The position numbers and the translations under genes are program-made. Under the pieces are notes generated by a model that had not been told where the DNA came from, did not search any database, and saw nothing but the letters and a program-made list of their open reading frames with translations. This document shows positions 24,097-33,789 of a stretch of DNA of 42,007 nt, one piece after another. This stretch comes from Magnetococcales bacterium (GTDB taxonomy: Bacteria; Pseudomonadota; Magnetococcia; Magnetococcales; UBA8363): the NCBI GenBank assembly GCA_015228815.1, contig JADGCV010000014.1, positions 1-42,007 on the forward strand, read 5' to 3'. The stretch's first letter is position 1. Each line of letters starts with the position of its first letter.

Positions 24097-25239
24097 TTCG
24101 CAAGAGTCCGTTCATGATTCCTCTGCCTCCGCAACCTTGAAGGTTTCCCCTTTGGCCAGCAACGCCCAAACGATGCGTGCGTTTTTCGCTGCCAACGCCA
24201 CGGTTGCGACATTCCAACCCCGACGTTTTTCCAACTTTGTGACCCATCGGCTGAGTCGATCTTTCTTTTCCCTGGCCTGGATCAGTGCCGACCGGGCCCC
24301 ATGAAGCAACAACATTTTCAGGTAGGCGTCTCCTTGATTCCCGATCCTCGCCAGACAGGTTCCTTCTTCCGTGGAATGTTGTCGCGGAACCAATCCAAGC
24401 CACGCTGCCATTGCCCGACCGTTTTTGAATACGCTCACATCCCCGATCGCGGCAATCAGCGCCGTGGATGTCAGTGGATCGATACCGGGAATCGTCTCCA
24501 ACATCCGACAGGATTGGTTTTCTCTGCTGATGTCCTTGATTTGACCATCAAAACCGTGTATTCGCCTGTCAAAGTGCAACAATTGATCGTTCAATTGCCT
24601 CAGTTCATCACGAAACCACTCCGTCAAGCCGTTTCCGGTATCATTCAAAATTTTTGGAATCAGGCTCCGGACCTGGTCTGGTCCAGTCGGTATGACGACT
24701 CCATAGTCCATGAGGAGTTTATAAATCATGTTGTTCAAGGCCGTTCGATGGGAAATCGTCTTGTTTCGCATCCGATGCAGACTTTTGATATCCTGTTGTT
24801 CGAGCGATTTTATCGTCACAAATCGCATCATGGGCTGTTGAACCGCTTCACAAATTGCCGCGGAATCCAACCTGTTGTTTTTCTTGTTCTTGACGTAAGG
24901 TTTGACACGCTGTGCGACCATCATTCGGACGTCATGGCCCATGTTTTTCAACTCCCTGGCCACATGGTGCGCACCGGGGCACGCTTCGATGCCTACCAGA
25001 CAGGGCTTCAAGTTGGCCATGAATTCAAGCATTTTCGCACGGGAATAATGCTCTCGAAAAACCGGGTTCCCCTTGGCATCGACCCCATGCAGGTGGAATG
25101 AATTTTCTCTGGTGTCGATGCCAAGGACCTTGATTTCTTTTCTTGTGCTATTTTTGCCCATGGTGCGCTCTGTTTTCCGTTCGGATTTTCAGGGTTCGAA
25201 ATTGGCAACGTTTGGCGGTTGCACGCCTCAATCCTTGAA
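24097..25239 (-). mobile_element. IS110-family insertion, ends not defined
   Basis: Bounds are set only by the neighbouring repeats: copy R5 on the left and direct repeat B on the right. IS110 elements lack long terminal inverted repeats and target duplications, so exact ends cannot be read here. In this family a non-coding segment next to the transposase gene encodes a guide (bridge) RNA; the candidates are 25162-25239 and the short 3' side. Confidence 0.5.
24112..25161 (-). CDS. IS110-family transposase with altered catalytic residue
   Basis: A 349-residue DEDD recombinase. The N-terminal RuvC-like domain has D16 (LGIDTRENS) and E59 (VGIEACPGAHH). The paired aspartates normally in K-N-D-x-x-D-A appear as K94-N95-N96-R97-L98-D99, so the third acid is Asn while D99 is kept. 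The C-terminal transposase_20 domain has ETIPGIDPLTSTALIAAIG and the region of the catalytic serine, RQHSTEEG (S263). The protein is full length with no frameshift. The similarity to IS1111-type members (VKPYVK, AICEAVQQPMMRFV, LMDYGVVIP, LLLHGARSAL) is clear. The Asn suggests reduced or lost activity, or a divergent subgroup; sequence alone cannot decide. Confidence 0.93.
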   Translation of the reverse strand: MGKNSTRKEIKVLGIDTRENSFHLHGVDAKGNPVFREHYSRAKMLEFMANLKPCLVGIEACPGAHHVARELKNMGHDVRMMVAQRVKPYVKNKKNNRLDSAAICEAVQQPMMRFVTIKSLEQQDIKSLHRMRNKTISHRTALNNMIYKLLMDYGVVIPTGPDQVRSLIPKILNDTGNGLTEWFRDELRQLNDQLLHFDRRIHGFDGQIKDISRENQSCRMLETIPGIDPLTSTALIAAIGDVSVFKNGRAMAAWLGLVPRQHSTEEGTCLARIGNQGDAYLKMLLLHGARSALIQAREKKDRLSRWVTKLEKRRGWNVATVALAAKNARIVWALLAKGETFKVAEAEES

Positions 25240-25518: not shown

Positions 25519-26364
25519 ATGATCATGGTAAACGGTCACGGTATCGACGGCAAAGATCGGCAAATGACGGGCCAAGGTTCATATATTTTGGCCACGGAAG
25601 GTCTGACCGTTAAATTTCGCTCGGAATCGGGATGGTTTTCGGCTGTTGATGATCTTTCATTCAAATTGTGTCAAGGGGAGGTTCTTGGCGTCGTCGGTGA
25701 GTCGGGTTGCGGGAAGAGCGTAACCTGTAAAGCGCTTATGCGGCTTCATGATGATGGAGTCCAAAGTGGTAAGATTTTTTTGGACAACATCGATATAGCT
25801 ACATTAGACGAGCGGTCACTGAGTCGAATACGCGGCAGACGTATTGCCATGATATTCCAAAACCCGATGTCGTCTCTCAATCCGGTTCTCTCGATCGGAC
25901 GACAGATGACCGAGATCATTCGGCACCATAAAGGGATGAGCAAGGAGGAGTCCCGGAAGGACGCTACGAACTTGTTGGTTCGCATGGGCGTTTCCAATGC
26001 CGAAGATCGGCTTTCACAATATCCCCATCAACAGAGCGGGGGCATCAATCAGCGTATCGCCATTGCCATGGCGCTTTCATGCAACCCAGATGTGTTGCTT
26101 GCCGATGAGCCGACGGCATCGTTGGATCCGACCATCCAACTACAGATTCAGGATCTTTTTCGAGAGCTGAAGGGACGATTGAGCATTCTGCTGGTCAGCC
26201 ATAATCTTGGAACAATCCACGACCTGGCCGATCGGGTGATCGTAATGTACAAGGGTATGATCGTTGAAGAGCAGTTTGCCGGGGAATTTTTCGAATCACC
26301 GAAGCATCCATATTCGAAGGCATTGCTGTCGGCTATTCCGTTCTTGAATCGCGGGGGCAGTTGA
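25519..26364 (+). CDS. Oligopeptide/dipeptide-type ABC transporter ATPase (DppD/OppD-like)
   Basis: Cytoplasmic ATPase of a peptide-type ABC importer. The 281-residue protein has Walker A GESGCGKS (residues 60-67), the Q-loop IAMIFQNPMSSLNPVLSIGRQ, the signature QSGGINQR (usually LSGGMRQR) and Walker B DVLLADEPTASLDPT. It ends abruptly at HPYSKALLSAIPFLNRGGS, lacking the Cys-rich or extended tail many OppD proteins have. No permease genes are adjacent. The start has no clear Shine-Dalgarno site; the ATG at 25564 is an alternative. The next ORF overlaps its stop (TTGA). Codon choice looks less GC-biased than in the flanking core genes, consistent with transfer. Confidence 0.85.
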   Translation: MIMVNGHGIDGKDRQMTGQGSYILATEGLTVKFRSESGWFSAVDDLSFKLCQGEVLGVVGESGCGKSVTCKALMRLHDDGVQSGKIFLDNIDIATLDERSLSRIRGRRIAMIFQNPMSSLNPVLSIGRQMTEIIRHHKGMSKEESRKDATNLLVRMGVSNAEDRLSQYPHQQSGGINQRIAIAMALSCNPDVLLADEPTASLDPTIQLQIQDLFRELKGRLSILLVSHNLGTIHDLADRVIVMYKGMIVEEQFAGEFFESPKHPYSKALLSAIPFLNRGGS

Positions 26365-27065
26365 ATTTTCTCATGCTCAATTTGGCGTCCCTCCCAGACA
26401 AAAAGGTCAGATCTGCAATTTCGGCAGTCGTTGATCGCAATGGATTGCAAACCCTGTTGGGTTTGCAAGGTAATGTGACGACAGACATTTATCCTCCGGC
26501 ACTGTTTCCGAAATTGTCTCGTCGCCAGGAAATCTCTGAACAACGGCATGATGACGATAAATCGCTTCGCACAACGCCGCTCCGGTTGGTTGCATTCGAA
26601 GACGTATTGTCTCGTGCCATCGCAGAGCAGGTTGCAAGGGATGCAAGGCGTGTGGGCCTTCCGATTGAAATCCAGTCAGTCCCCTTTCCAGTACTCGTCG
26701 ATCGGCTGAATAAGGGTGATTACGACCTGCTCCAGCTGTACTGGGGACCGTTCTATGCCGACCTCCGCCACTTTCTCGCACCGTTTCTAAGCAAATCATT
26801 TCCGCCATCAGGAAACAACTTCAACCGTTACAGAAATCCCGCAGTGGATTTACTTGTCGATGCCAGTCAGGCCCTGGCAGACCATGACGCTGATTGTTTG
26901 TTTTCCAGCGTGCGCGACATGATCCTCCGCGACGCCCCGATCATCCCACTTTATTTCGGGAATCTGGTCCGTGCATCGAACGGAACATTTGCCATGCCCC
27001 TTCATCCTCTCGGCTACCGTCCATACAAATTGGCCGTACCCATCAATGAGAAACCGAAAGGCTGA
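26361..27065 (+). CDS. C-terminal fragment of a family 5 solute-binding protein
   Basis: A 234-residue ORF. It matches only the C-terminal half of DppA/OppA-type binding proteins, starting at the FLMLNL...DKKVRSAISAVVDRNGL segment and continuing to YRNPAVDLLVDAS and APIIPLYFGNLVRAS. It lacks a signal peptide and the N-terminal domain. The nominal start is a TTG overlapping the ABC gene stop. In the same frame, upstream codons inside the ABC gene read VLESRGQ, which also looks binding-protein-like, suggesting that a deletion fused two originally separate operon genes. Most likely a remnant; a small accessory protein cannot be excluded. Confidence 0.6.
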   Translation: MNFLMLNLASLPDKKVRSAISAVVDRNGLQTLLGLQGNVTTDIYPPALFPKLSRRQEISEQRHDDDKSLRTTPLRLVAFEDVLSRAIAEQVARDARRVGLPIEIQSVPFPVLVDRLNKGDYDLLQLYWGPFYADLRHFLAPFLSKSFPPSGNNFNRYRNPAVDLLVDASQALADHDADCLFSSVRDMILRDAPIIPLYFGNLVRASNGTFAMPLHPLGYRPYKLAVPINEKPKG

Positions 27066-28531: not shown

Positions 28532-30856
28532 TCAAACCTTGAATCGCCGCAGTTCCTGATCCAGCATTCCGGCGATCCGTTGGGCGTCGATGGCGCCGTC
28601 GGTGACGGTGGCGCTCAAGGCGAACATTCGTTCCGCCGCCTTGAGGACCTCGCCCATGTGGTTGGTCAGTTCCACGGCCTGGAAAACGGTTTCGGCGACG
28701 GCATGGGTGATCTTTTCACCATGGTCCGAGGTTTTCTCCACCGAGTGGGTCATCCCTTCCACCCCCAGGGAGGCGGAGGAGACGTTCCGGGTGACCTCGT
28801 TGATGCCCAGGGCGATTTCCTGAACGCTGCGTCCGACCTCGTTGACTTCGTTGGTGATGTCTCCCATCAGGTGCGACACCGATTCGGTTTCCCGGGCGAC
28901 CTCACCCATGGAACGGGTGATTTCGTTGACCGAATTGGATTGTTCGAGCATGGCATCCAGAATGTCGCCATTGGCCTGACGGATCCGTTTGACCCTTTGA
29001 TTCATCCCTTCCATGGCGTTGTTGACGCTGTTGGTATGATCCTGGATGAGTTGAATCTTGTTCTGGATCTGTTGGGTCGCATCCCCGGTTTGCCGGGCGA
29101 GGTCCTTGACCTCGTTGGCCACCACCGCGAATCCCTTGCCCGCATCACCCGCGCCCGCGGCCTCGATGGCGGCATTCAGGGCCAGCATGTTGGTCTGCTC
29201 GGCGATGTCGCGGATCAACCCGACCACCATCATGATTTCCTGGGCCGATTGTGCCAGCTTGGTCATCACTTCGCCATTGGATTCGACGGCGCGATTGGCC
29301 TCGTCCGATTCGGCGGCGGCGATGGCGCACCGTTCCTTGACGCCGTTGAGCGAGGCGTTCATCTGTTCCACCGCCGAGGCGATGGTGCCGATGTTTTCGC
29401 TGGAGCGCTCGGTGGCCTCGCGTACCTTGATCATCCCCTCGGACTGATTGCCGGCGGCATTGGCGACGGTGCCCAGATTGGCGGAGGCCTCCTCGGCGGC
29501 GGCAGAGATGGTGGCCATGTTATGGTTGATGTCCTGGGCCGACTTGAGCACTTCGGTCATGTATCCGGACATCGCCTGGACCGCCTCCTCGACCCCGGTC
29601 ATGTTGTGGTTGAGGTTCCCGGCGATGGTGTTGACCGTTTCCCCCTTTTGACGCAGTTCACCCGCCCCCGCTGAAAGCTCGGCGGCAACCTGGTTCAATT
29701 CATTGGAACTTGTCGTCAACGGACCCGAATTCCCGACGATCCCCGCGATCAGATGCCGCAGATTGCCGACCATGGTCGCCATCGCCCCGATCAAAATGCC
29801 AAACTCGTCTTCCCGATGTTTCGCTTCCATGGCAATGGTCAGATTGCCCTGGGCAAGATGTTCGGTCGTGGCGACGATCGCGTGCATCGGTTTCAGGATC
29901 AGCCGTTGCAGCAGCGAAAACAGGCCGATACCGACGATGCAAACCAATATGCCGATGAAAATGATTTTGTGGACGATCCGTTGCCGGGCATCCGCCAACA
30001 GATGGGTCACATCGTTGAAGACCCGGATTTCACCGATTTCCTGATTGCTGAAGTCGCTGATCGGAAAACGGGAGGCCATCCATGTCTTCCCATCGATCGT
30101 CATGGGGGTTTCCAGGGCCTGCTCCCTGGTCAATAACAGCAGGGGGCGGACATAAGGTTCGGAAAAACTGTAGAAAAGGGTATCGCCGATCACTTCATCC
30201 GATTTGCTGTCGGCGAAGCGTTTGGCGGCGTTGAACACCGATTCCTTGATGCCGATGGCAAAATCAAGTTTTGTCGTCTCCCGGGCGACCGAAAAGACCT
30301 CCGCCAGGCTGCCGCCGAGTTCCATCGAACCAAGGTGACGATCCCCCTGAAACACCGGATACACCACCCTGAGACCAGGACCCCCACGTCCCACCTCCAG
30401 GCCGACGACCGGTTTTTTGGACTGGTTCGTCACGATGACCGTCTTGCGAAAGGAAGAAAGGTCGTCGCCGAATTTGGCCGGTTCGTGAACGCGCAGAAAA
30501 CTGATCGCCGGCGGCAGATGAAACTGGAATTGGTTCATCTTGTACTGGGGCAGCATCCGGTCCTTGAAGAAGGGAAGGGTCATGTCCAGGAGGGACTTGC
30601 GATCCTGGGCGGCGAAGGCGGCGATGATCCCCTTGTCGTTGAGCAGGGATTCGATGACCAGGGATTGATCCTTGCCACGGACATTGATCTGGCTGTGGAT
30701 GATTTCACGGAATACATGGGCCGTCTCCATCGTCTGACGCTGAATCGACTGTTGCGCTTCCTGATGGCTCTGATAACTGAAGACGAACCCCATGAACGTC
30801 AGGGACACGAGGATGACCAGAACGACCTTGAATCGTAAACCGTGATGCCATTTCAT
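28532..30856 (-). CDS. Methyl-accepting chemotaxis protein with dCache_3-like sensor
   Basis: A 774-residue inner-membrane chemoreceptor. There is a first membrane segment at about residues 10-28, then a periplasmic sensor with the pattern FHLPPAISFLRVHEPAKFGDDLSSFR...GLEVGRGGPGLRVVYPV, typical of dCache_3. A second membrane segment (IIFIGILVCIVGIGLFSLL, near residue 320) is followed by a HAMP domain and a long coiled-coil signalling domain. The CheA-contact tip is IRDIAEQTNMLALNAAIEAAGAGDAGKGFAVVANEVKDLA. No C-terminal NWETF-like CheR pentapeptide is present; it ends LRRFKV. The ligand is unknown. It is divergent from the hemerythrin fusion gene across about 300 nt. Confidence 0.95.
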   Translation of the reverse strand: MKWHHGLRFKVVLVILVSLTFMGFVFSYQSHQEAQQSIQRQTMETAHVFREIIHSQINVRGKDQSLVIESLLNDKGIIAAFAAQDRKSLLDMTLPFFKDRMLPQYKMNQFQFHLPPAISFLRVHEPAKFGDDLSSFRKTVIVTNQSKKPVVGLEVGRGGPGLRVVYPVFQGDRHLGSMELGGSLAEVFSVARETTKLDFAIGIKESVFNAAKRFADSKSDEVIGDTLFYSFSEPYVRPLLLLTREQALETPMTIDGKTWMASRFPISDFSNQEIGEIRVFNDVTHLLADARQRIVHKIIFIGILVCIVGIGLFSLLQRLILKPMHAIVATTEHLAQGNLTIAMEAKHREDEFGILIGAMATMVGNLRHLIAGIVGNSGPLTTSSNELNQVAAELSAGAGELRQKGETVNTIAGNLNHNMTGVEEAVQAMSGYMTEVLKSAQDINHNMATISAAAEEASANLGTVANAAGNQSEGMIKVREATERSSENIGTIASAVEQMNASLNGVKERCAIAAAESDEANRAVESNGEVMTKLAQSAQEIMMVVGLIRDIAEQTNMLALNAAIEAAGAGDAGKGFAVVANEVKDLARQTGDATQQIQNKIQLIQDHTNSVNNAMEGMNQRVKRIRQANGDILDAMLEQSNSVNEITRSMGEVARETESVSHLMGDITNEVNEVGRSVQEIALGINEVTRNVSSASLGVEGMTHSVEKTSDHGEKITHAVAETVFQAVELTNHMGEVLKAAERMFALSATVTDGAIDAQRIAGMLDQELRRFKV

Positions 30857-31158
30857 GAATCGAAACCCTCATTCGAGAAACGTGGTCGGAATTGCTCCCC
30901 CCTGAAGCGAACACATCCGCTTCCCCGAATCATCATCCGTGCAAGTCGGCTTATTGATGGACGCGAATTTGATAAACTTCAAGAAAAAAAATAACACTGT
31001 CGGATCGAATGACAGTGCGGGCGCCCGTCGATCTTGCCTGGATATCACCCTCCTGATATGTTGGAGGCGGATTTCGAGAAAGGTATTGCGCGTTATTTTC
31101 TCGGTTTGTTTTTGTTCGCGACATCATTCCTCCTTGGATTGATTCAACAAAGGAAAAC
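30857..31158. other. Divergent promoter region between chemoreceptor and hemerythrin-fusion genes
   Basis: A 302-bp region that should hold promoters for both genes. I see a small stem-loop CACTGTC...GACAGTG around 30995-31017 and an AGGA site just before the 31159 start. No clear sigma-70 or sigma-28 consensus stood out, and the short ORF across it has no supporting features. Confidence 0.5.
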
Positions 31159-33789
31159 ATGAAGGGAATGGACAAGATCATAAAAACGGGCATCACCAGG
31201 GGGATGTTCTGGATCGAAGTGCCCGAGGCGGGACTGCGCGTTCTCTGCGGCTGTCCGGGAGACAGCGTCAAGCATTTGATCAAGCGGGGGCTGATCGTTA
31301 CCAAGGAAAAAAACGGGGTCGTCTTCGAGACCGGTCCCAACGCCATCCTTCTTTCCGACGTCATGGTGCAAAATGGCGAATTTTCCAATCTGGCCGAATT
31401 TCCCGTATTGCAGATGCTCTACAAGCAGGGGCTGATCCTGCCGAATCATCCCAACAATTCCGGGGAAAAACCCCTGTTGATCGGGATGCCGGAACAGGTC
31501 ACTGCCCAGCTGCAATACATTTACCGCGGCAATTACGGTCTGGTTTCCCGGGAAGAAATCATGAAGACCGGCATGGATCGGGTGCGGGCCGACGAGATCA
31601 TGCGCATGAAGCTCCGTTTCGCCTTTGGCCGGATCCTGCCGACATCGGCGTTTCTCGATACCCGCCTCCTGGCCGGAGAACATGAGCCGGTGGCGATTCG
31701 CAACGGGGTATCCATCAAGAGGAAATCGACCAACATTTTCGAATTCGAATATCGCGGTGAAACCGTCGCGGTCGATCTCAACCTGAAGGAGGGGGACCGG
31801 TATCCACCACCCTATCCCCTGGGATTCCAGAAAATAAAGCGGGAATATTTCGGCGTGATCCATTCGGGGGACGGGGATGGATGGGATACCAATCGACCCG
31901 GCATGTCGAGCATTCTCATGTTCCAGGGGCGTCTGTTCCTGATCGACGCCGGTCCCAACCTGGCCATCAATCTTGCCGCCCTGGGGATCGGCCTGGAAGA
32001 GATCGAGGGGGTGTTTCTGACCCACATTCACGATGATCATTTCGCCGGGATCACGACTTTGTTGCGGGCGGGTCACAAGATCAAATTCTATTCCACCCGG
32101 CTGGTGCGGGCGACGGCGGAAAAAAAAGTGGCCGCCCTTCTGTCGATGGAGGAAGAACGGTTTCGGGATTATTTCGAGATTCACGATCTGGCCCTGGATG
32201 CCTGGAACAATGTCGATGGCCTCGAAGTCAAACCAATCCTGTCGCCGCATCCGGTGGAAACCACCATTCTGCTGTTCCGGGCGTTGTGGGTCGGGGGACA
32301 CAAAACCTATGCCCATTATGCCGACATCGTTTCCCTCGATATCCTCGAAGGGATGGTGACGGAGGACGACAGCAAAAACGGGGTGACCCGGGCCTTGTTC
32401 GAGCAGGTCCGGGCCGAATATCTGCAACCGGTCGATATCAAGAAAATCGATATTGGCGGGGGAATGATCCATGGCGTCGCCCGGGATTTTCTGGGAGACC
32501 GATCGGGCAAACTGCTCCTGTCCCATACATCCCAGGAGCCGACCGCGGAAGAAAAAAGGATCGGTTCGAGCGCTTCCCACGGGACTGCCGATATACTCAT
32601 CCCCGCCGCCACCGATTTTTCACGGCACAGCGCGTTTGGCCATCTGCGCTCCTACCTTCCCGATGCCCCGTTCGATCAGATTCGCATCCTTCTCAATTGC
32701 CGCCCGGTATTTTTCAATCCCGGAGAAATCATCCTCAAGGAAGGGGAGGTTCCGGCCCATATTCTCCTCATCCTTTCGGGCATGGTCGAAAGCATCCATG
32801 CCACCGAAAACACGATCAGCCAGCTTTCGGTCGGCACCCTCGTCGGCGAGATGGTGGCCATGCACCATCTTCCGGTCGAGTCAACCATCCGCGCCTCCGG
32901 GTATGTGCAGGCCCTGGAAATTCCGTCCCAGCTTTACATCGAACTGATCGAACGAAACGATCTTTTCCGCAAGTTGGAGCGGACCTGGGACCTTCGTTCG
33001 TTTCTTCTTTCCACGAGTCTGTTCGGCGAAGGGGTGTCCCATCCGGTATTGGGCCGGATCGTGGATACTCTGGAAATACGGCGCTGCCAAGCGGGGGATT
33101 TGTTCACCTGCCGCGATCTGGGAGCCCTCAACATGGTCCGCTCGGGGCGTTTCGCCCGGTTGGTGGGCGGGGAAACCATCGACATCCTTGGCGAAGGTGA
33201 CTTCTTCGGCGAGGAGGGGGCGGTGTTCAACATTCCCTGCCTGTTTCGCGTTCAGGCGATCGAAGCGGCGGAAACGTTGCAAATATCCGGCGAACTCGTC
33301 AAGGATATTCCGATCGTTCGCTGGAAACTTTTCGAGTCCTACCTGAAAAGGGCGCAACGAATCGTCTATTCCGGCAAGGGCTCCGCCCGGCTCGCCTGGA
33401 AGGATGAGTTTGGCATCCATAACGCCCAGATGGATACACACCATAAGAAACTGGTGGAAATCGCCAACAGCATCATCGAGATCGTCCACTCGTCACAGGA
33501 CAGAAACTCCCTGGAACGCGCCTTCGAGGGATTGGTGGATTATACCCACTACCATTTCGCCTCCGAGGAAAACCTTATGGAAGAATATGGCTACCCGGAA
33601 TTGGAACGACATCGCGCCATTCACCGCGCCCTGGTCTCCCGGGTCCTGGACTACAGGGAAGAAATCGCGTCCAGGGAGACCCTGGACGGGGTCGATTTTG
33701 AATCATTCTTCCGCGATTGGATCGTGGGGCACATCCTGAACGAAGATCGCAAATACTCGGTGTTTCTCAACGAACGGTGCGTTTTTTGA
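31159..33789 (+). CDS. Metallo-beta-lactamase / tandem cyclic-nucleotide-binding / hemerythrin fusion
   Basis: An 876-residue soluble protein. A metallo-beta-lactamase fold (about residues 215-470) has THIHDDH near residue 288 and further His/Asp ligands (SPHPVETT, LLSHTS). Two cNMP-binding beta-barrels follow: about 510-610 (FFNPGEIILKEGEVPAHILLILSG) and about 638-720 (GRFARLVGGETIDILGEGDFFGEEG). A bacteriohemerythrin domain (747-876) keeps the di-iron ligands: H in FGIHNAQMDTHH, HYHFASEENLM, HRAIH and HILNED. The first about 200 residues are unassigned. It probably couples oxygen or redox binding to a nucleotide-controlled hydrolase. The family of the MBL domain's substrate is unknown. The divergent neighbour is a chemoreceptor, suggesting a role in aerotactic behaviour (inference). 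Confidence 0.88.
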   Translation: MKGMDKIIKTGITRGMFWIEVPEAGLRVLCGCPGDSVKHLIKRGLIVTKEKNGVVFETGPNAILLSDVMVQNGEFSNLAEFPVLQMLYKQGLILPNHPNNSGEKPLLIGMPEQVTAQLQYIYRGNYGLVSREEIMKTGMDRVRADEIMRMKLRFAFGRILPTSAFLDTRLLAGEHEPVAIRNGVSIKRKSTNIFEFEYRGETVAVDLNLKEGDRYPPPYPLGFQKIKREYFGVIHSGDGDGWDTNRPGMSSILMFQGRLFLIDAGPNLAINLAALGIGLEEIEGVFLTHIHDDHFAGITTLLRAGHKIKFYSTRLVRATAEKKVAALLSMEEERFRDYFEIHDLALDAWNNVDGLEVKPILSPHPVETTILLFRALWVGGHKTYAHYADIVSLDILEGMVTEDDSKNGVTRALFEQVRAEYLQPVDIKKIDIGGGMIHGVARDFLGDRSGKLLLSHTSQEPTAEEKRIGSSASHGTADILIPAATDFSRHSAFGHLRSYLPDAPFDQIRILLNCRPVFFNPGEIILKEGEVPAHILLILSGMVESIHATENTISQLSVGTLVGEMVAMHHLPVESTIRASGYVQALEIPSQLYIELIERNDLFRKLERTWDLRSFLLSTSLFGEGVSHPVLGRIVDTLEIRRCQAGDLFTCRDLGALNMVRSGRFARLVGGETIDILGEGDFFGEEGAVFNIPCLFRVQAIEAAETLQISGELVKDIPIVRWKLFESYLKRAQRIVYSGKGSARLAWKDEFGIHNAQMDTHHKKLVEIANSIIEIVHSSQDRNSLERAFEGLVDYTHYHFASEENLMEEYGYPELERHRAIHRALVSRVLDYREEIASRETLDGVDFESFFRDWIVGHILNEDRKYSVFLNERCVF

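Follow-up and report, generated by a model that had tools for sequence, protein, structure and literature searches.

An 876-residue protein of a Magnetococcales bacterium, encoded in a 42,007-nucleotide stretch of contig JADGCV010000014.1 (hereafter the window, meaning the whole stretch analysed), joins an N-terminal domain without a known family (N-domain) to a metallo-beta-lactamase (MBL) fold, two cyclic-nucleotide-binding (CNB) domains, and a bacteriohemerythrin (Hr) domain. There is good support for describing it as a sensor-coupled MBL hydrolase. The gene probably belongs to a family of signalling enzymes that has been little described, and is not a one-off. The most likely activity, to which we give about an even chance, is that of a predicted cyclic-mononucleotide (cNMP) phosphodiesterase.

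Domain architecture

The open reading frame begins with ATG, and a Shine-Dalgarno-like AAAGGAAAA lies, as judged by eye, immediately 5' of it (Table 1). Three Pfam families matched the protein above their cut-offs, cNMP_binding (7.7e-19; two stretches, 67.9 bits), Hemerythrin (1.6e-12), and Lactamase_B (1.3e-10), and the NCBIfam bacteriohemerythrin model NF033749 matched the C-terminus with 117 bits against a cut-off of 84. The preliminary description had read an MBL fold, two CNB barrels, and a complete di-iron hemerythrin site in one chain, divergent from a chemoreceptor. These matches bear out the domain content, all seven di-iron ligands are present, and the neighbouring gene does encode a divergent dCache_3-HAMP-MCP chemoreceptor, whose start lies 302 bp away. 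A chance fusion is excluded because homologues of the N-domain and MBL domain, usually with two CNBs, occur in all 41 genomes searched in the host order, many of them as full-length proteins. The fusion is real, as first described.

Table 1. Features of the 876-aa gene and its divergent neighbour, in window coordinates
Feature	Positions	Strand	Basis
876-aa gene: N-domain, MBL, CNB1, CNB2, bacteriohemerythrin	31159..33789	+	ORF call, Pfam, NCBIfam, full-length relatives
N-domain, residues 1-228, without known family	31159..31842	+	66/226 columns >=95% identical, 70 relatives
MBL-fold metallo-hydrolase domain, residues 229-480	31843..32598	+	Pfam, PDB profile match, structure model
HxHxDH motif (HIHDDH), residues 289-294	32023..32040	+	ligand kept in 70/70 relatives
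Further MBL ligands H364, D389, H456	32248-32250, 32323-32325, 32524-32526	+	kept in 70/70 relatives
CNB1, residues 517-600, cNMP_binding fold without phosphate-binding Arg	32707..32958	+	Pfam, model, alignment
CNB2, about residues 626-715 (boundaries approximate), without phosphate-binding Arg	33034..33303	+	second Pfam stretch, model, alignment
Bacteriohemerythrin (Hr) domain, residues 745-872, seven di-iron ligands	33391..33774	+	NCBIfam, solved homologue, model
Divergent intergenic region (302 bp) between 876-aa gene and chemoreceptor gene	30857..31158
dCache_3-HAMP-MCP chemoreceptor, divergent neighbour	28532..30856	-

The N-domain and the MBL domain form a conserved core

The N-terminal 200 or so residues had been reported as matching nothing recognisable. 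This part stands: residues 1 to about 230 have no curated Pfam family, and a single weak TarS_C2 match appeared in 1 of 40 relatives. They are not a stray region, however, but are conserved like the MBL domain and belong to the core. Across 70 relatives, columns that are at least 95% identical number 66 of 226 in the N-domain and 71 of 252 in the MBL domain, against 4 of 130 in CNB1 plus linker, 6 of 125 in CNB2, and 9 of 132 in Hr. Because the N-domain equals the MBL domain in conservation, and far exceeds CNB1, CNB2, and Hr, we take the two together to be the enzyme. Some SAR324 genomes encode this core alone, at about 480-495 aa and without CNBs (Pfam checked on one such protein, L157). Among the stand-alone proteins of SAR324, L157-L160 are 478-481 aa long, and an aroA-like gene (c28, named by eye) lies in the neighbourhood that three of the four have in common.

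The MBL site is complete, with all seven metal ligands (H289, H291, D293, H294, H364, D389, and H456) intact in 70 of 70 relatives. In a wider core alignment (n = 40, including a 28%-identical relative), the invariant columns include these seven together with K38, E80, D263, K323, H386, K429, D431, and H438. The di-iron site of flavodiiron/ODP proteins has the motif HxExD. We rejected an oxygen-binding MBL of that type, as HIHDDH, with H291 invariant, is the wrong ligand motif.

The first half of ELAC2 is a decayed MBL, and the N-domain and MBL of the 876-aa family may mirror this tandem arrangement of long-form RNase Z. ELAC2 aligns over residues 2-475 of our structure model (337 residues, Z 13.6, rmsd 5.9 A; VIA-align), which hints, as a lead only, that the N-domain may be a decayed MBL copy. 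Comparison of the N-domain with the MBL domain by hhalign gave no support for a duplication (E 0.14 and 0.35 without secondary structure, 0.13 with it). When secondary structure was shuffled, 14 of 60 shuffles scored equally well, and the controls also gave z < 1, so that this test has little power. The N-domain was modelled with pLDDT mostly below 50 in a first model and moderately in a second, and the MBL matches from fold searches barely test it.

Apyc1 is the closest solved MBL fold by profile and VIA-align

A profile of 40 relatives, searched against PDB sequences, placed Apyc1 7u2s first of 124 matches (E 5.2e-8), with arylsulfatase 8gyg at 7.8e-8 and Apyc1 7u2r and 7t28 in third and fourth places. 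A structure model of residues 1-489 (pLDDT 67, pTM 0.63) was likewise closest to Apyc1 by VIA-align, in which 7t28, 7u2r, and 7u2s took ranks 1-3 (Z 17.5, 17.1, and 16.8; 201-205 residues superposed at 3.2-3.7 A rmsd), followed by PqqB (Z 15.5), an arylsulfatase (14.8), and the cAMP/cGMP phosphodiesterase YhfI (14.3). Ranking by Foldseek E-value differs, with an arylsulfatase first and Apyc1 7u2r 11th. Apyc1 and YhfI are described as cyclic-mononucleotide phosphodiesterases with HxHxDH di-zinc sites (PMC9117128), and the 876-aa protein has the same HxHxDH di-metal motif. They are single-domain proteins of about 250 aa, whereas ours is multidomain. Apyc1 has a catalytic Glu (E74) and Tyr (Y112); the position that we aligned with E74 in the PDB profile alignment is Thr, Pro, or Ala in the 876-aa family, and the Apyc1 family PF23023 scored 21.2 bits, below its gathering cut-off of 50 (best of nine relatives scanned, 31.2). 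The modelled similarity to Apyc1 favours phosphodiester hydrolysis without proving it.

The core could instead be a sensor-controlled MBL hydrolase of some other substrate, such as an RNA end, an arylsulfate or phosphonate ester, a lactone, or another small molecule. RNase Z models are the best-matching named enzyme models for the MBL domain in NCBIfam, though they fall under their cut-offs; arylsulfatase 8gyg and RNase Z stand near the top of both the profile and the Foldseek rankings; the Apyc1-type glutamate is missing; and single-copy family genes of SAR324 adjoin housekeeping genes. RNase Z itself we rejected, as TIGR02651 scored 40 bits over residues 245-303, far short of its cut-off of 292.95. 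Apyc1 comes first both by profile and by VIA-align, and fusions to receiver (REC), solute-binding-transmembrane (SBP-TM), and Hr domains are typical of second-messenger enzymes. We consider another substrate a serious but less probable alternative to cNMP hydrolysis.

The CNB pair has lost its phosphate-binding arginines

Both CNB domains fold as CNBs in the structure model. The phosphate-binding arginine is replaced in each, by V573/E574 in CNB1 and C694 in CNB2, and the R motif is kept in only 5 of 70 relatives for CNB1 and in none of 70 for CNB2. Because this arginine is gone from both domains, nucleotide sensing by the pair is uncertain, and the earlier reading of two nucleotide sensors is doubtful for domains so altered and so poorly conserved.

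Loss of this arginine need not mean loss of a ligand. Kinetoplastid PKA regulatory subunits that have lost it bind nucleosides (PMC6440977), and a kinetoplastid PKAR is among the structural matches listed for the CNB model. By analogy, the pair might bind a nucleoside or other uncharged relative of a nucleotide, in place of cAMP or cGMP, as the true allosteric signal, since the replacement is of the kind that accompanies nucleoside specificity in those proteins. The same authors warn that ligand specificity was not predicted by sequence alone, and an arginine mutant of mammalian RI alpha is still activated by cAMP, with a 5-fold loss (PMC6440977). The low conservation of the CNBs would fit a purely structural role equally well. 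We regard nucleoside binding as rather unlikely; it is compatible with our preferred reading of the protein as a regulated cNMP phosphodiesterase and would alter only the input.

The order of domains has a eukaryotic parallel. Dictyostelium GbpA and GbpB are described as intracellular class IIb MBL-type phosphodiesterases, stimulated by cyclic nucleotides that bind a pair of domains after the MBL (PMC11988041), so that by description they have an MBL followed by two CNBs in the same order as the 876-aa protein. The family described here differs in being bacterial, in having lost the CNB phosphate arginines, and in its extra C-terminal Hr or N-terminal REC or SBP sensors. We know of no counterpart in GbpA of the conserved N-domain.

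The hemerythrin domain is complete

The nearest solved relative of the C-terminal domain is the hemerythrin of DcrH (E 7.5e-20), a protein whose output is an MCP and not a hydrolase. Of 39 relatives with an Hr domain, 36 keep all seven ligands (H762, H799, E803, H818, H822, H858, and D863), the 876-aa protein included. Three relatives (L068, L069, and L070, order family f9) have Cys or Ser in place of H799, perhaps with altered or lost O2 binding. A 2008 survey counts chimeric hemerythrins in Magnetococcus, and the available text of that survey does not describe an MBL-CNB-Hr fusion (PMC2556348).

Hemerythrin has been found fused to a phosphodiesterase before. Bhr-HD-GYP of Ferrovum is a hemerythrin-controlled c-di-GMP phosphodiesterase that is active only when reduced, and it was termed in 2022 the only known hemerythrin-controlled phosphodiesterase (PMC9388753). 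It differs from the 876-aa protein in its HD-GYP catalysis, against MBL, and in that no CNBs are mentioned for it. As the only characterised hemerythrin phosphodiesterase thus acts on c-di-GMP (PMC9388753), the core might degrade a cyclic di- or oligonucleotide such as c-di-GMP rather than cyclic mononucleotides, and some neighbours of family genes are c-di-GMP-type regulators, for example HD-GYP proteins (c13 and c58, by eye). Family neighbourhoods are not conserved, and none of the structural matches listed is titled a c-di-GMP hydrolase; we consider this reading improbable.

A family with swapped sensors

The preliminary description had presented a triple fusion. It is not unique: the protein is one member of a family whose sensors are swapped. 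Beyond the host order, the core is found in 45 of 52 genomes of the SAR324 phylum, in 2 of 24 genomes of the phylum of a Nitrospinota record, and in sporadic single MAGs labelled Gallionellaceae, Methylocystaceae, and Gammaproteobacteria. A phylum-wide draw, with at most two candidates scored per genome, gave matches in 55 of 398 genomes, 48 of them from the host order. No match to the family was found among plasmids, phages, and viral contigs, and a mobile-element or phage origin was rejected on this count. The organism's own genome has three copies: the 876-aa gene, a 56%-identical Hr-bearing copy, and a 44%-identical copy that has an N-terminal SBP_bac_3-transmembrane part and lacks Hr.

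We sorted 100 distinct cores by blastp label into 39 core-CNB+Hr, 38 core-CNB, 10 REC-core-CNB, 7 SBP-core-CNB, and 1 REC-core-CNB+Hr, and 5 labelled as without CNB, one of them wrongly. These labels are approximate: L121 was labelled as without CNB, though Pfam finds two stretches, and L069 as without Hr, though the alignment shows an Hr that lacks H799. Pfam bears out the sensor labels of L082 and L105 (Response_reg) and of L074 (SBP_bac_3). On a quick tree, whose long branches make it rough, the Hr label needs 12 changes, 5 of them forced by well-supported branches. Where a REC or SBP part stands ahead of the core, the linker resembles, by eye, the coiled-coil linkers found in front of catalytic signalling domains, a theme treated in PMC1592074. 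Swapped fusions of this sort (REC, SBP-TM, Hr, or none) are the pattern of a signalling output module.

Two further variants come from SAR324. In L147 (G430:C180), a putative Zn_protease/retropepsin-type domain (PF05618, residues 758-892, E 9.6e-24) replaces Hr. A distant subfamily (27-33% identity), made up of L121 (G399:C4) and ORFs like it of ~810-840 aa, keeps the MBL-CNB-CNB order but has a weaker MBL match, and its activity may differ.

Genomic setting and cyclic-nucleotide enzymes

Across 66 family loci, no neighbour recurs except within close clades, and a functional link through conserved neighbours was rejected on this count. MCPs of the window's cluster (c23) adjoin a family gene in 3 of the 66 loci, so that the chemoreceptor link is not borne out as a general association, and there is no evidence that the divergent chemoreceptor belongs to the system. 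Hybrid histidine kinases (c1) occur in 12 of the loci. At one locus (L111, G025), a chemoreceptor that seemingly ends in a hemerythrin (by eye) lies upstream of, divergent from, and close to an Hr-bearing family gene. Elsewhere in the window, an IS110-family transposase (24112-25161, minus strand) sits beside an oligopeptide-ABC-type pair (25519-27065).

Class III cyclases number four in the organism's own genome and occur in all 41 host-order and all 52 SAR324 genomes. Their co-occurrence with the family is uninformative, because cyclases were found in every genome tested, SAR324 genomes without the family included. One class III cyclase with an apparent FHA-like tail (L162; G000:C50, 1087-1980, minus strand) adjoins a PP2C-like phosphatase gene (by eye). 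Among 21 genomes, class II phosphodiesterase PF02112 was found in one, and not in the organism's own; class I phosphodiesterase PF00233 exceeded its cut-off in none; and CpdA (NF008359) exceeded its cut-off in none and scored below it in four, the own genome not among them. The own genome also encodes a small RNase-Z-like MBL protein that scores 95.8 bits with a cyclic-nucleotide phosphodiesterase model, against a cut-off of 400. Because of this protein, we regard the N-domain and MBL family as a candidate for the phosphodiesterase, though not necessarily the sole one.

Discussion

We favour a cNMP phosphodiesterase because Apyc1 gives the closest MBL folds by profile and VIA-align and because the MBL-CNB-CNB order is that of GbpA and GbpB. 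The complete ligand sets, the swapped sensors, the class III cyclases of a genome in which typical class I, class II, and CpdA phosphodiesterases were not found, and the precedent of Bhr-HD-GYP also speak for it. Against it stand the preference for RNase Z models, the first place of an arylsulfatase in Foldseek, the miss by PF23023, the missing Apyc1-type glutamate, the loss of the CNB arginines, the occurrence of class III cyclases also in SAR324 genomes without the family, and the second candidate phosphodiesterase in the own genome. The oxygen-to-nucleotide-turnover link that had been proposed is plausible on the same two grounds, the Apyc1-like fold and the GbpA/GbpB order; the nucleotide substrate is the predicted part of it.

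We suggest the following mechanism. Residues 1-480, the N-domain and the di-metal MBL, would be the catalytic output of a soluble signalling hydrolase, whose activity is most likely that of a 3',5'-cyclic mononucleotide phosphodiesterase of the MBL (class II) type. The C-terminal Hr di-iron site would sense O2 or redox state and so alter the activity of the hydrolase. The two CNB-fold domains downstream of the core would serve as the allosteric relay, in the manner of GbpA and GbpB, though they probably no longer bind cAMP or cGMP in the canonical way. Paralogues would take their input through a receiver phosphorylation domain or a periplasmic solute-binding/transmembrane sensor in place of Hr. 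Taken whole, a soluble, Hr-controlled MBL-type cNMP phosphodiesterase with a CNB relay is a reading that we think could equally prove right or wrong.

More tentatively, and with rather less confidence, we propose that the N-domain and MBL, with or without the CNB pair, might be an unnamed class of bacterial signal output used in the manner of GGDEF and EAL domains. It would be the bacterial equivalent of the MBL-type cNMP phosphodiesterases of Dictyostelium, wired to O2 or redox state (Hr), to REC phosphorylation, and to periplasmic solutes (SBP-TM), and present throughout one order and in most of SAR324, its N-domain perhaps a decayed MBL copy and its CNB pair perhaps bound by a non-canonical ligand. 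A search of the open-licence literature found no paper that joins hemerythrin, metallo-beta-lactamase, and cyclic nucleotide, and no listed title on the family, which is weak evidence of absence; one paper that matched in part is, by its listing, on Magnetospirillum physiology.

If our preferred reading as an Hr-controlled cNMP phosphodiesterase is true, the 876-aa protein would join Bhr-HD-GYP as a hemerythrin-controlled phosphodiesterase of a second kind, and the once unrecognised N-terminal 200 residues would be accounted for as a conserved part of the catalytic core. The MBL-CNB-CNB architecture of Dictyostelium could then be studied in a bacterial relative. The family would also supply a candidate off-switch enzyme for cyclic-nucleotide signalling in bacteria with several class III cyclases, and the organism's own genome, which has such cyclases and lacks the class I, class II, and CpdA phosphodiesterase families tested, is such a case.
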